Shown here in pieces: positions 6,028 to 40,487 of a stretch of DNA of 64,000 nt. Numbering within the stretch: position 1 is the stretch's first letter; each line of letters begins with the position of its first letter. The notes below the pieces were generated by a model. It worked only from the letters and a program-made list of their open reading frames with translations, searched no databases and was not told where the DNA came from. The stretch covers positions 124,001-188,000 of the forward strand of contig NZ_JAVIXR010000004.1 of assembly GCF_031157525.1 (NCBI RefSeq), in the 5' to 3' direction. The DNA is from Marinobacter sediminicola. Lineage in GTDB: Bacteria > Pseudomonadota > Gammaproteobacteria > Pseudomonadales > Oleiphilaceae. A program made the translations under genes and the position numbers.

Positions 6028-7044
6028 TTACTCGCCGTCGTAATCTACGCGGTCAACCAATTTCACTGCTGCATTGCGCTTGTCTGCAATTTCCTGAAGA
6101 GAAAGGCTGTCTGGGTGGATTTCTCCCCATTCTGCTACCAGGCCAGTGGGTGTTACGTTCGGGTTGGCTGGGTATTCAGTATTCGCCTCAGCGTAGATGC
6201 CCTGGGCTTCCGGAGATGACAGGAACTCCATCAGCTTGATCGCGTTTTCGCGGTTCGGGGTGCTCTTGGTCAAAGAGATACCACTGATGTTGATGTGTGT
6301 TCCACGGCCATCGGCATTAGGGAACACCAACCGAACGGCTTCTGCCGTTGGGCGTTGGCTCTCATCCTGCAGCATGTTGCCGTAGTAATAGCTGTTGCCG
6401 ATAGACACATCGCACACACCTTCCGCGATGGCTTTAATCTGGTCGCGGTCTCCGCCTTGGGGTTTGCGGGCGAGGTTGTCTTTCAGGCCTTTGAGCCAGG
6501 TTTCTGTCTCGGCTTCACCGTGGTGCGCGATCATGGATGAAATCAGAGCAATGTTATAAGGGTGCTTGCCACTGCGGGTACAGATGCGGTTGTCCCACTT
6601 GCTGTCAGCCAACTGCTCGTAGGTTGTGATTTCACCTTCTTCAACGCGCTCTTTCGAGGTGTAAATCAGGCGGGCACGGGTAGTAAGGCCGAACCACTTG
6701 CCTTCGGGGTGGCGAAGGTTTTCGGGAATGTTCTTTTCCAGCACATCGTTGTCCAGGCCTTGAACCAGATCGCGCTCTACCAGTTCGTTAAGGCGTGAAA
6801 TGTCTACGGTCATCACAACGTCTGCCGGGCTGTTGCGGCCCTCGCGCTCCAAGCGCTCAGCCAGGCCCTGCTTTGCAAACACAACATTACTCTTGATGCC
6901 AGTCTCTTGCTCGAATGCGTTCAGCAGCGGCTCAAGGAGATACGCCTGCCGGTATGAGTAGATATTAACTTCACCGTCTGCGGAGGCGGCAAGTGGGAGA
7001 GCTGTAAGGGCGATTGCCGCAGTTGCAGCGAGTTTCATGCGCAT
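6028..7044 (-). CDS. fbpA: Fe(III) ABC transporter periplasmic binding protein
   Basis: Periplasmic ferric-iron binding protein of the FbpA/FutA family (338 residues). The signal peptide MRMKLAATAAIALTALPLAA is followed by DGEVNIYSYRQAYLLEPLL, the usual first strand. Family features seen: FEQETGI, a tyrosine pair SYYYG near residue 215 that provides iron ligands in this family, and a late TPTGLVAEWG stretch. AAGGA lies six bases before the ATG. The gene is first in a two-gene unit with fbpB, separated by a hairpin. A Fur-like sequence lies upstream, which fits iron repression. Confidence 0.92.
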   Translation of the reverse strand: MRMKLAATAAIALTALPLAASADGEVNIYSYRQAYLLEPLLNAFEQETGIKSNVVFAKQGLAERLEREGRNSPADVVMTVDISRLNELVERDLVQGLDNDVLEKNIPENLRHPEGKWFGLTTRARLIYTSKERVEEGEITTYEQLADSKWDNRICTRSGKHPYNIALISSMIAHHGEAETETWLKGLKDNLARKPQGGDRDQIKAIAEGVCDVSIGNSYYYGNMLQDESQRPTAEAVRLVFPNADGRGTHINISGISLTKSTPNRENAIKLMEFLSSPEAQGIYAEANTEYPANPNVTPTGLVAEWGEIHPDSLSLQEIADKRNAAVKLVDRVDYDGE

Positions 7045-21404: not shown

Positions 21405-22106
21405 ATGAAACCGATTACATCAACCTGGATAGCCAAACCGGCAGGCACCTTTGTGTTGGTATGGATGCTGATCCTGCTGCAAGGATGTACGGCCATGAGC
21501 CGGCCCAGAGCCGAGCCGAATGATCCCGCGTACGCACCTGTGCGTGCCAACGCAATGATGCAGCGTGATCCGGAATCAGGCGCGATTTTCCAGAGCTCCC
21601 GCAACTACAACTTTTACGGCGACACAGTGGCTTTGAATGTAGGCGATGTACTGACGGTTACGCTCAAGGAGTCCACGCGGGCCAGCAAGAATGCTGAAAC
21701 CAAGATCAATAAGGACAGTGATATTTCACTGATTGAGCCCACTATTCTGGGCAGGAATGATTTTGGCATCGCAACGTCCATCAAGAATGAAAGAGACTTT
21801 AACGGTAAAGCCGAAGCAGACCAGAGCAATAGCCTGGCGGGCAGTATTACAGTGACGGTTATAGAAGTGTTGCCCAACGGCGTATTGAAAGTGCGTGGCG
21901 AGAAGTGGATCTCGCTGACCAACGGCGATGAGTATGTGCGCCTGACAGGCCTGGTGCGCCCACAAGACATCGACCCGGGCAACATTGTTGCTTCCAGCCG
22001 TATAGCCGATGCTCGCATTGCCTACGGCGGTACCGGAGATTTTGATCAGGCGAATCAGATGGGCTGGCTGGCCCGGTTCTTCAACAGTGAGTGGTGGCCC
22101 CTATGA
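21405..22106 (+). CDS. flgH: Flagellar L-ring lipoprotein FlgH
   Basis: Outer-membrane L-ring subunit (233 residues). A signal peptide with lipobox LLQGC ends near residue 24, followed by the family pattern [20 protein letters not shown] near 60-80, [20 protein letters not shown] near 80-100 and [20 protein letters not shown] near 165-185. GAGGAG precedes the ATG at 21405; the frame is open further upstream but overlaps flgG. Its stop overlaps the flgI start (ATGA). Confidence 0.97.
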
Positions 22107-27728: not shown

Positions 27729-27921
27729 GCCTGTCTGTTTTTCGCTGGAAATACCCGATACGCGAATTTGAACATGCGGCGAATTTTTACGGGTGCTGAT
27801 CCTACCTCTGAACTATAATATTTCTTCGAATTAAGTTGAGGCTTTCAAATGGGGGCCTTTGGGGCTGGCTGTCGATAATGCTCTATTAGCTATGGATAGA
27901 TCTGAATGGGGATATAAGGGA

Positions 27922-28974
27922 ATGAACATCATTATCAAATCTTTTTGCGTAGCCTTGATCATGTCTTTTGCGACGGCGGGTGCCGTGCAGGCAGCTGACA
28001 CTGTCGAAGAATATATTCGGGAGTTTCCCAACCAGGAACAGGTCAAGATGATGCACGCCTGGCTGGAAAAAAATGAGAAAGGTACGTTTCAGTTTACCGG
28101 CTTGGTAGACCCCACCGACAGTACCGTTGTGACGCCCCAGGCCACGGTGAACTATGGGTACAACTGGTTCTCGGTTTCTGATGATCCCGCCATTGTTAAA
28201 ACTCCGAAGTATGACAAGTTTTTCTCAGTTTCGATCTTTGATATGAAACACAATGTGCCTGCAGTGATTGTAAACCCGGACAAACCTATTCTGATCAAAC
28301 GCCCGGGGCAGAAGGTACCTGACGGCGACTTCCATGTTGTTTCACTGGAAACTGATCAAGGCGTGATTCTTACACGCATGGTTGTTGTGGATAACCTAAA
28401 AGAGGTTATGGGACTGAGTAAGAAGATCGTTATGGAAGGCGGGAGGGGTAGTATGGTTCGAAACGTGCAGCGTTTCTCCGCTGAAACAGAAAAGAACGCG
28501 CTCTCTGTTATAGATGCCATTGTATCTTATGCGAACCCGGATGTTGCTTTCGGGGAAGTTAGTGGCGACGTGAGTTTCCTGAATCTTGCCGCAGGTGTGA
28601 AACTGGGGCAGTTGGGGACGCCGGCCGATACTGTCCGCTACGGCATAATGCTGACGGATAATAAGGGGCAAGCACTCAATGGTAAGGATACTTATGTAGT
28701 TACCGTCCCTGCCGGGCTTCATTTAAAGGGTGGCTATTATTCGGTCACGCTTTATGGAGCAGACAACCAGCTACTGATTCCAAACGACAAGAAGATCTAC
28801 GATCGCACCACTTTTTCATCTAAAGCAAATGTGGACGGCAGTTATACCTTGACTTTTAGCCCTGATGGCGAAGGGATTAATGGCATACCGACAGGCAAGG
28901 CTTTCTATGGGGTTTTGAGAGCCTATGTGCCTAACCCGGATGCAAACATGAAGGTTAAAGTTGTAAGGCAATAG
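27922..28974 (+). CDS. DUF1254/DUF1214-type periplasmic protein
   Basis: A 350-residue secreted protein. A signal peptide (MNIIIKSFCVALIMSFATAG, then AVQA) is cut near residue 24. The C-terminal third has the DUF1214 pattern: GGYYSVTLYGADNQLLIPND near 255-275 and GKAFYGVLRAYVPNP near the end. The middle, with NYGYNWFSVSDDPAIVKTP, resembles DUF1254. The molecular function of this family is not established. I chose the ATG at 27922 because it gives a clean signal peptide; the frame is open to a TTG at 27859. A TATAAT lies at 27814. Located between tRNA-Leu and a lipoprotein gene on the same strand. Confidence 0.75.
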   Translation: MNIIIKSFCVALIMSFATAGAVQAADTVEEYIREFPNQEQVKMMHAWLEKNEKGTFQFTGLVDPTDSTVVTPQATVNYGYNWFSVSDDPAIVKTPKYDKFFSVSIFDMKHNVPAVIVNPDKPILIKRPGQKVPDGDFHVVSLETDQGVILTRMVVVDNLKEVMGLSKKIVMEGGRGSMVRNVQRFSAETEKNALSVIDAIVSYANPDVAFGEVSGDVSFLNLAAGVKLGQLGTPADTVRYGIMLTDNKGQALNGKDTYVVTVPAGLHLKGGYYSVTLYGADNQLLIPNDKKIYDRTTFSSKANVDGSYTLTFSPDGEGINGIPTGKAFYGVLRAYVPNPDANMKVKVVRQ

Positions 28975-38235: not shown

Positions 38236-38285
38236 ATACTTGACTGAATTACTTGGTCAATTCATACTCAGTCTCGCATACTGAG
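38236..38285 (+). promoter_or_regulatory. iscR promoter with partial IscR-type site
   Basis: ATACTTGACT (38236-38245) is a perfect match to the left half of the type 1 IscR site (ATASYYGACT) and contains a -35 TTGACT; a CATACT lies 17 bases further. The right half is imperfect: GGTCAATTCAT at 38255-38265 is displaced. A further dyad, CTCAGT/ACTGAG, is at 38267-38285. Autoregulation is likely but the site is not standard. Confidence 0.5.
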
Positions 38286-38312: not shown

Positions 38313-38810
38313 ATGAAGTTGACTACTAAAGGCCGCTACGCCGTTACGGCAATGCTGGATCTCGCTCTCCACGGAGGGCAGGGGCCGGTAACGCTAGCGG
38401 ATATTTCAGCCCGTCAGGAAATATCGCTTTCCTATCTGGAGCAACTCTTCTCACGTCTTCGTCGCCGGGAGTTGGTGATAAGTATTCGTGGGCCCGGCGG
38501 TGGTTATCACCTGAGCCGAAGTGCGGCCAGTATTTACATTGCCGAAGTGGTTGATGCAGTCAGTGAGTCCCTGGATACCACGCGGTGTGGAAATAAGGGC
38601 GATTTCCAGAATGGTGAAAAATGTCTGACGCATCACCTGTGGTCTGACTTGAGTGATCAGATTCATCAGTTTCTTAGCGGGATCAGTCTCGGAGATCTGA
38701 TGCAAAGACACGAAATCCGCCAGGTTGCGGACCGACAGAATCGCCGGCAAGCCGAAGGTGATTCCGACACAATTAATACCGAGCGTCTGATAGATCAGGC
38801 GCCCGCCTGA
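38313..38810 (+). CDS. iscR: Fe-S cluster regulator IscR with Cys98 replaced by Phe
   Basis: Rrf2-family transcription regulator (165 residues). The N-terminal winged helix is standard ([20 protein letters not shown], then [20 protein letters not shown] and [12 protein letters not shown]). E. coli IscR binds a [2Fe-2S] cluster through Cys92, Cys98, Cys104 and His107. Numbering coincides here: Cys92, Cys104 and His107 are present ([15 protein letters not shown]), but codon 98 at 38604-38606 is TTC, Phe. The gene starts at 38313; the frame is open upstream without a better start. It is followed 18 bases later by iscS. The protein may work mainly in its cluster-free form. Confidence 0.93.
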
Positions 38811-38828: not shown

Positions 38829-39977
38829 ATGAAAAAGCCTGTATACCTCGATTACGCGGCAACAACACCCGTTGATCCTGCCGTAGCGGAAGAGATGATC
38901 AAGTATCTGACACCGGAGGGCTTCTTTGGTAACCCTGCGTCCCGTTCCCATGGTTTTGGTTGGCAGGCTGAAGCGGCTGTAGAGGCTGCTCGAGGTCAGG
39001 TGGCGAGCCTGATTCATGCGGATCCTCGTGAAATAGTCTGGACTTCCGGAGCTACCGAATCTGATAATCTCGCCATCAAGGGCGCGGTTGCGGGTCGAGA
39101 TAAAGCCCACGTCATAACCTCTACTATTGAACACAAGGCGGTTGTTGATACCTGTAAATGGCTCGAGGGCCGCGGTGTTGAAGTTACGTGGTTGGAGCCT
39201 GAACGTGATGGCGTGATCCGGCCGCAGCAGGTATTTGATGCGCTTAAGCCAGAAACTCTTCTGGTGAGCCTGATGCTTGTGAACAATGAGTTGGGTTGTG
39301 TAACTGACATAGCCACTATTGGTACGGAGCTTCGAAACCGTGGTGTTTTGTTCCATGTCGATGCGGCCCAGGCCGCTGGCAAGCTCGCCGTTGATGTCAC
39401 CACTATGCCAGTGGATCTTATGTCTCTCTCTGGCCACAAAGTATACGGACCCAAAGGTGTGGGCGCGCTCTATGTGAGGCGATCGCCGGATGTTCGTATC
39501 GAAGCCCAGATTCATGGCGGTGGCCATGAGCGTGGTATGCGTTCGGGAACCCTGCCGACGCACCAGATTGTTGGCATGGGTAAGGCATTCGCAATTTCCC
39601 AGCTCTGTCTCGAGGAAGAAATCGGCAAGCTCGAAGCCTTGCGTGCTGAATTTCTTGGTGGCCTTGAAGGGTTGTCAGGGGTGACTCTCAATGGTTCTGA
39701 TACGTGCCGCGTGCCGGGAATCATGAATCTTTCATTTGATGGTGTTGATGCCGAGTCTCTGATGCTTGGTCTCAGGCATCTCGCTGTGTCATCTGGTTCT
39801 GCTTGCGCTTCTGCCACCTTAGCGCCTTCATATGTGCTTCTCGGTATTGGGCTGGGCGAAGAGTTAGCCCATCGTGCACTGAGATTTTCCATCGGGCGTT
39901 TTACCACGTCTGAGGAAATTGCCTTCGCCAGCACGCAAATTGTTGAAGTTGTTACCCGCCTTCGCGCAGTGCGGTAG
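38829..39977 (+). CDS. iscS: Cysteine desulfurase IscS, short C-terminus
   Basis: PLP enzyme that takes sulfur from cysteine and passes it on as a persulfide (382 residues; E. coli 404). PLP lysine in [12 protein letters not shown] (Lys204) and active cysteine in [17 protein letters not shown] (Cys326) are present, with [10 protein letters not shown] near 177. The chain ends with VTRLRAVR; the last 20 or so residues of the E. coli enzyme (the SPLWEMYK...SIEWAHH tail used to dock IscU) are missing, and no frameshift remnant follows. iscU, iscA, hscBA and fdx are absent downstream. It may supply sulfur for tRNA thiolation and other acceptors. Confidence 0.94.
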
Positions 39978-40058: not shown

Positions 40059-40487
40059 ATGGCTAATGAGCGCACGCTTTCTATTATCAAGCCCGATGCA
40101 GTTGCAAAAAATGTGATCGGTGAAATCTACAGCCGCTTTGAAAAAGCCGGCCTGAGCATTGTAGCGTCACGCATGATGCACCTTACCCAGGAGCAGGCGG
40201 AAGGCTTTTACGCTGAGCACAAAGAGCGTCCTTTCTTCAACGATCTGGTTGCATTCATGACCTCCGGTCCTGTTGTTGTTCAGGCTCTGGAAGGCGAAGG
40301 CGCCATCCTGAAGAACCGCGACCTGATGGGTGCAACTAACCCGAAGGAAGCGGATGCCGGCACAATCCGCGCAGACTTCGCTACATCTATTGATGCGAAT
40401 GCGGTTCACGGTTCCGATTCTGCAGCTTCTGCAGAGCGTGAAATTGCTTATTTCTTCAGTGACAACGAAATCTGCCCGCGCGGCTGA
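40059..40487 (+). CDS. ndk: Nucleoside diphosphate kinase
   Basis: Transfers the terminal phosphate between nucleoside triphosphates and diphosphates (142 residues, normal size). N-terminal [20 protein letters not shown]; the catalytic histidine is in [20 protein letters not shown] near residue 117. CTAGGAGAAA precedes the ATG. In Pseudomonas ndk follows a full isc operon; here it follows iscS directly. Confidence 0.98.

Follow-up and report, generated by a model that had tools for sequence, protein, structure and literature searches.

Loss of the cluster ligand Cys98 from IscR in a single Marinobacter genome with a type 1-like site before its suf genes

One Marinobacter genome (G000, the genome under study; other genomes of the genus carry G-numbers) encodes an IscR regulator in which Cys98, one of the four ligands of the [2Fe-2S] cluster, is replaced by phenylalanine. 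The genus set consisted of 124 genomes, 123 of which have an iscR match (the exception, G076, is 82% complete). Since all 122 other IscR-bearing genomes keep Cys98, C98F is best read as a strain-level mutation and not a Marinobacter trait. Comparison with related sequences indicates that the base is probably real and the mutation probably recent. Taken as a whole, the explanation we favor is a likely one: a recent C98F change cost IscR a ligand, the protein is now mostly in its apo-form, and the Fe-S assembly genes are expressed constitutively. If the change is real, this is a naturally sequenced IscR cluster-ligand mutant, a class otherwise encountered in mutants made in the laboratory or arising in evolution experiments. 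Its setting is little studied: a cell without detectable IscU, with suf behind a putative type 1 site. This combination of iscRS lacking iscU with a suf operon behind such a site is a more general and more useful result than C98F.

IscR and its cluster ligands

The window, meaning the whole 64-kb stretch of DNA that was analyzed, contains a single iscR gene, in which the four ligand codons can be read directly.

38313..38810, + strand: iscR, 165 aa, the sole IscR match of the genome; Glu43 present, DNA-binding half intact
38586..38588, + strand: codon 92, TGT, Cys ligand retained (read from the sequence)
38604..38606, + strand: codon 98, TTC (Phe) where G114, the nearest genome, has TGC (Cys); private to G000
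38622..38624, + strand: codon 104, TGT, Cys ligand retained (read from the sequence)
38631..38633, + strand: codon 107, CAT, His ligand retained (read from the sequence)

The preliminary description of this DNA had reported TTC at codon 98 with Cys92, Cys104, and His107 present, in the residue numbering of E. coli IscR. Both statements hold. Residues 1–148 form a gapless alignment with the E. coli IscR structure 4hf1, which makes the E. coli numbering valid for the Marinobacter protein, and codon reading finds three of the four ligands in place and phenylalanine at the fourth. The same alignment finds Glu43 present. According to PMC3899308, the ligands of the IscR cluster are Cys92, Cys98, Cys104, and His107, and Glu43 holds apo-IscR off type 1 sites.

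The protein is still an IscR by descent, with one ligand lost. It scores 128 bits with the Pfam Rrf2 model (cut-off 30), IscR models take the top two places in NCBIfam (214 and 201.9 bits, below the curated cut-offs of 275 and 207.55), and its closest solved structures are IscR. The gene stands at the head of an operon with iscS adjoining (38313-38810, then 38829-39977). A second IscR that might stand in for this one is ruled out: the genome has a single match to its own IscR at E <= 0.001, and the only further full-length member of the Rrf2 family, of 145 aa, has NsrR as its best model, at 141.3 bits and under the cut-off of 182.

What would the loss of Cys98 mean for the cluster? The closest evidence comes from Pseudomonas aeruginosa, where a C98A protein represses iscR 1.6-fold, versus 16.9-fold for the wild type, and absorbs less at 415 nm. 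Its repression is partial and can still be relieved by plumbagin, from which the authors infer a weakened cluster; C92A and H107A give no repression at all, making C98A the milder change (PMC3899308). Purified C98A protein left the isc promoter unbound at concentrations up to 2 uM (PMC6599224). In E. coli adaptive evolution, paraquat is linked to iscR mutations, which most often fall in the cluster site, the subunit interfaces, or the DNA-binding region; Isc activity was raised in an evolved C98G strain that also carried other mutations, and construction of C104S in that E. coli strain failed, with growth defects suspected (PMC11264330). A clusterless E. coli IscR (C92A) does not repress the isc promoter (PMC12594620). 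In Rhodobacter sphaeroides, only one Cys takes part in the binding of an Fe-S cluster by IscR (PMC4618611).

Within the protein itself, the Cys and His inventories of the G000 and G114 sequences are identical except for C98, so no substitute ligand has been gained elsewhere in IscR and that possibility is ruled out. Phenylalanine is larger than alanine and has no iron-binding group. From the P. aeruginosa C98A and evolved E. coli C98G proteins, the loss of Cys98 should weaken the cluster and remove type 1 (cluster-dependent) repression. Together with the nature of the Phe side chain and the lack of a new Cys or His, the same analogies make it likely that the cluster is weak or absent and that the protein is mostly apo in air.

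The effect of C98F may be partial, because P. aeruginosa C98A retained some repression and an oxidant response. The claim of the preliminary description that the regulator would be “cluster-free” is accordingly too strong. Its account of Cys98 as a ligand whose loss has a cost to the cluster stands, and its “mostly apo” is likely by analogy with C98A. A related alternative, which we think unlikely, is that the F98 protein keeps working with a weaker [2Fe-2S] cluster whose fourth ligand would come from water, the backbone, or a neighboring side chain, its regulation being shifted and not abolished. The residual 1.6-fold repression and plumbagin response of C98A, read by its authors as signs of a weakened cluster (PMC3899308), would fit such a protein, as would the cluster of R. 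sphaeroides IscR with its single Cys (PMC4618611), but C98A bound no isc promoter up to 2 uM (PMC6599224). The bulk of Phe, its lack of an iron-binding group, and the absence of any Cys or His added relative to G114 also speak against a serviceable fourth ligand.

Candidate IscR sites and the Fe-S assembly genes

Two overlapping elements lie upstream of iscR.

38236..38260, + strand: type 1-like IscR site before iscR; 20/25 versus the E. coli consensus; intact here and highly conserved across the genus
38240..38268, + strand: sigma-70-like promoter, TTGACT-17-CATACT; overlaps the IscR site; supported by its conservation

The block TGAATACTTGACTGnnnTnnTnGGTCAATTCATACT upstream of iscR shows strong conservation across the genus, and G000 has it unchanged. 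Within the genus, AATACTTGAC occurs in all 123 iscR upstream stretches, TTGACT in 118 of the 123, and CATACT in 121. A promoter scan returned 3 sites versus 1.8 expected, which is not above chance. The score of the IscR site, 20/25, is weak by itself, given that one other place in the 64-kb window also reaches 20, and the site does not appear among the genome hits with <=3 mismatches. That other place (window 21721-21745) is taken for chance. The second site before E. coli iscR scores 22/25 versus the consensus and shares 17/25 bases with the Marinobacter site, the two being put in register by eye.

The stronger matches lie elsewhere in the genome. A whole-genome scan for type 1 sites with <=3 mismatches found two places only, and a reversed-pattern control found 0. 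The first is ATACCTGACTAATTTAGTCTGGTAT, before sufB, at 24/25 versus the type 1 consensus (G000:C22:278453-278477, which is 6454-6478 of locus L213, G000:C22:272000-291999). The second has 3 mismatches (22/25) and lies ~60 bases upstream of where erpA probably starts (G000:C39:213587-213611, or 1501-1525 of locus L254), the likely erpA being identified at 184.3 bits against a cut-off of 117. The suf site scores 21–23/25 in 29 of 30 genus loci and 24 in G000; these loci are the 30 best by SufB score of the 124 genomes, and in L241 the start was not located. In E. coli, isc, erpA, and nfuA have type 1 sites and are repressed by holo-IscR (PMC5040110), and suf has a type 2 site and needs apo-IscR (PMC12594620). 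The similarity of the Marinobacter suf site to the type 1 consensus suggests that suf is wired opposite to that of E. coli, being repressed by the cluster form. In Marinobacter, suf and erpA are thus predicted IscR targets on the basis of site similarity. For this large marine genus, the putative reverse wiring of suf is a clear-cut prediction.

In the window, iscR is followed by a shortened iscS and then by ndk.

38829..39977, + strand: iscS, 382 aa, 20 residues short of E. coli IscS at the C-terminus; ndk directly after
40059..40487, + strand: ndk, directly 3' of iscS, where an isc operon would continue with iscU

No match to iscU, iscA, hscBA, or fdx was found within the window. The C-terminal 20 residues absent from IscS correspond to the IscU-docking end of the E. 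coli protein, and their absence is in keeping with the absence of IscU. A model search for iscU found no match in the whole genome either; the same model left IscU undetected in 123 of the 124 genus genomes and was positive in 11 of 14 control genomes. The single match in the genus is below the cut-off and on a contig other than that of the genome's iscR. It lies at L111 (G081:C34:107623-107982) in a longer open frame (346 aa) and is possibly NifU-like. HscA is missing as well: the best HscA-model match in G000 falls below the TIGR01991 cut-off and is DnaK by score (1040 bits, versus 637 with another HscA model, just over its cut-off of 620). Hence the genome does not hold a complete ISC system in the sense of iscU, hscA, and fdx with iscRS, iscU being absent genome-wide and fdx absent in the window.

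The SUF genes sufB, sufC, sufD, sufS, sufA, sufT, and sufE stand in one row in G000, with sufA and sufE named by their best models at scores below the cut-offs. No other complete Fe-S assembly set was found in the genome. Across the genus, sufB was matched in 123 of the 124 genomes and was over the cut-off in 121. An iscR without a neighboring iscU is not peculiar to Marinobacter: among the best 80 of 585 iscR loci, 50 have an iscU match nearby, 29 have none, and 1 (L066) is too short. The distribution of ISC and SUF in Pseudomonadales is the subject of section 12 of PMC11559095; their control in Marinobacter is not covered in that section. Two observations on sufB can be added. First, G021, G049, G066, G073, G096, and G109 have two full-length sufB matches each, apparently from a second SUF cluster. 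Second, sufB is in pieces in two single-contig assemblies with ~6% contamination (G051:C1:2436319-2437436 and G065:C1:980899-982274); the splits look like frameshifts and are perhaps sequencing errors.

What are the expected consequences of C98F in this setting? A single-base G to T missense would have removed one of the four [2Fe-2S] ligands from an IscR that is otherwise normal. The F98 protein is expected to fold and to keep its DNA-reading half, and it would hold the cluster weakly or not at all, so as to be mostly apo in air. As apo-IscR does not bind type 1 sites, the protein would leave those of iscRS, suf, and erpA. With type 1-like sites in front of all three, C98F should derepress iscRS, suf, and probably erpA together, so that their expression would be constitutive and no longer answer to the cluster supply. 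At any type 2 sites the apo-form may remain active. In its boldest form the proposal is that G000 is a natural feedback-blind mutant, in which the only complete Fe-S factory, SUF, is type 1-wired, such that one base cuts the sensor and makes the whole set constitutive. This we put forward tentatively, at slightly worse than an even chance. If it is true, such a cell tolerates, or gains from, the full loss of Fe-S feedback with no ISC to fall back on.

Origin and distribution of the substitution

The nearest genome, G114, is ~96% identical in DNA over the window. Between the two iscR genes there are 14 codon differences, of which 13 are silent and one, C98F, is missense. Private changes were sought in 17 sequences over 13 genes, from secD to hisS; the last of these was represented in too few sequences to be counted, leaving 12 genes. 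In their 3763 usable sites, G000 has 1 private residue at an otherwise invariant site, and that residue is C98F; of its near relatives, G114 has 3 and G121 has 2, and more distant loci have 1 to 115, consistent with their distance. A codon-change tally took in 54 of 58 mechanically chosen ORFs of the window (1 has no counterpart in G114, and 3 lie in neither the G114 nor the G121 stretch, which end before the window does). It counted 74 private missense to 635 silent changes in G000 and 108 to 780 in G114. Eight ORFs showed frame-breaking gaps in the DNA alignment with G114 or G121. Compared as proteins, they are stop-free in G114 in 8 of 8 cases (one over 91 of its 106 residues) and in G121 in 7 of 8, the exception being a 112-aa ORF, possibly not a true gene. 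The assembly has 41 contigs, 99.94% completeness, and 0.15% contamination. As a separate observation on these stretches, a gene for a DUF1254/DUF1214 protein (window 27858-28974) is present in G000 and G121 and missing from the otherwise collinear G114 stretch.

No error load was seen in G000 in the private changes of the 12 genes, the codon tally, or the frame check, and these three rule out poor sequence around codon 98. That C98F is both the sole amino acid change from G114 in IscR and the sole private change at an invariant site in the 12 genes likewise gives no sign of poor sequence. The 122 other genomes agree at 86 of the 165 IscR sites, and 98 is the only one of these at which G000 deviates. 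A private change at an invariant column is not by itself extraordinary, because 8 of the 123 genomes, including G000, have some private substitution or gap at an otherwise invariant IscR column. The unusual aspect of C98F is that it hits a ligand. Changes that do so make up 29 of the 1071 possible one-base missense changes (2.7%), a post hoc figure for a site picked for its oddness.

Was the loss of the ligand selected? Under this reading, it was favored in the habitat or in culture, with constant high Fe-S assembly helping under redox stress. There is some evidence pointing that way: the iscR mutations of evolved E. coli are paraquat-associated, are often at the cluster site, and include C98G (PMC11264330), and the only missense change from G114 struck within the small class of ligand-hitting changes. 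However, this is a single event in one isolate, chosen for its oddness, and the C104S change could not be built in E. coli, where growth defects were suspected (PMC11264330). We regard selection as doubtful.

An error is less probable still. The living strain might have TGC, with TTC arising as a consensus mistake in sequencing or assembly or as a one-clone variant of the culture stock. A lone error of this kind would fit the facts that only G000 shows the change, that no other genome of the genus varies at the site, that TTC is one base from a Cys codon, and that the assembly is in 41 contigs. The genome as a whole does not look error-prone, however. It has no excess of odd changes (1 in 3763 sites, versus 3 in G114 and 2 in G121), its missense-to-silent tally of 74:635 compares with 108:780 in G114, its frame-gap ORFs are stop-free in G114 and, apart from the 112-aa ORF, in G121, and its assembly is 99.94% complete with 0.15% contamination. 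We therefore consider an error quite improbable and a true, recent C98F the better account of the sequence.

The preliminary description was right about the ligand loss; it missed that the change is private to this genome, as well as the type 1-like site before suf and the absence of IscU. Reading codon 98 in the genus genomes and in 82 further rows places Phe98 in G000 only. Codon 98 is TGC in 94 and TGT in 28 of the 123 IscR-bearing genus genomes, and TTC in G000 alone. Cys98 is also present in all 82 further rows, which partly repeat genus genomes: these are the best 80 of 585 confirmed loci plus duplicate stretches of G114 and G121. The 80 loci include many from Pseudomonas and other gammaproteobacteria, and the Marinobacter-like ones are probably in part already counted. 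The scan that yielded them, keeping the best 80 of the 585 confirmed stretches, included one peptide bearing Phe98, so a second case in the same surroundings would have been favored. Loss of Cys98 as a trait of Marinobacter, or of ISC loss, is thus ruled out. A lineage-specific redesign of IscR accompanying the loss of the ISC machine, for which one might cite the retention of iscR in 123 of 124 genomes with IscU undetected in 123 of 124, is refuted to near certainty by Cys98 in 122 of 122 others.

Relation to known IscR mutants and systems

C98F belongs to a known class of IscR mutations, of which it is an example from nature that is private to one strain. A partial literature search found no report of a natural IscR C98 substitution, of IscR control of suf in Marinobacter, or of natural loss-of-function iscR isolates. 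The literature search likewise found no paper on IscR C92Y, no paper linking iscR mutation with biotin, and no published Oceanospirillales IscR regulon.

How does G000 compare with the systems that have been described? First, P. aeruginosa IscR-C98A is alike in having lost the same ligand in a gammaproteobacterial, self-repressing type 1 IscR (PMC3899308, PMC6599224). It has a reduced cluster, represses weakly, and does not bind its promoter in vitro. The P. aeruginosa change is laboratory-made and to Ala rather than Phe, in a species that has ISC and no suf operon. Second, E. coli IscR-C98G and the other evolved cluster-site mutations resemble G000 as spontaneous missense losses of a ligand (PMC11264330). 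They differ in coming from evolution experiments with other mutations present, and in an E. coli background where suf is under a type 2 site and activated by apo-IscR. Third, E. coli IscR-C92A, the standard clusterless form, is a ligand mutant that serves as a stand-in for apo-IscR and leaves the isc promoter unrepressed (PMC12594620). The ligand lost there is another one, and promoters of type 2, suf among them, respond to it in E. coli (PMC12594620), whereas Marinobacter suf has a type 1-like site. Fourth, the IscR of R. sphaeroides, like that of G000, has fewer than three cluster cysteines and is encoded before iscS and suf genes (PMC4618611). Unlike C98F, its cysteine deficit is family-wide; its ligand scheme and DNA motif are different, and the protein still binds a cluster (PMC4618611).
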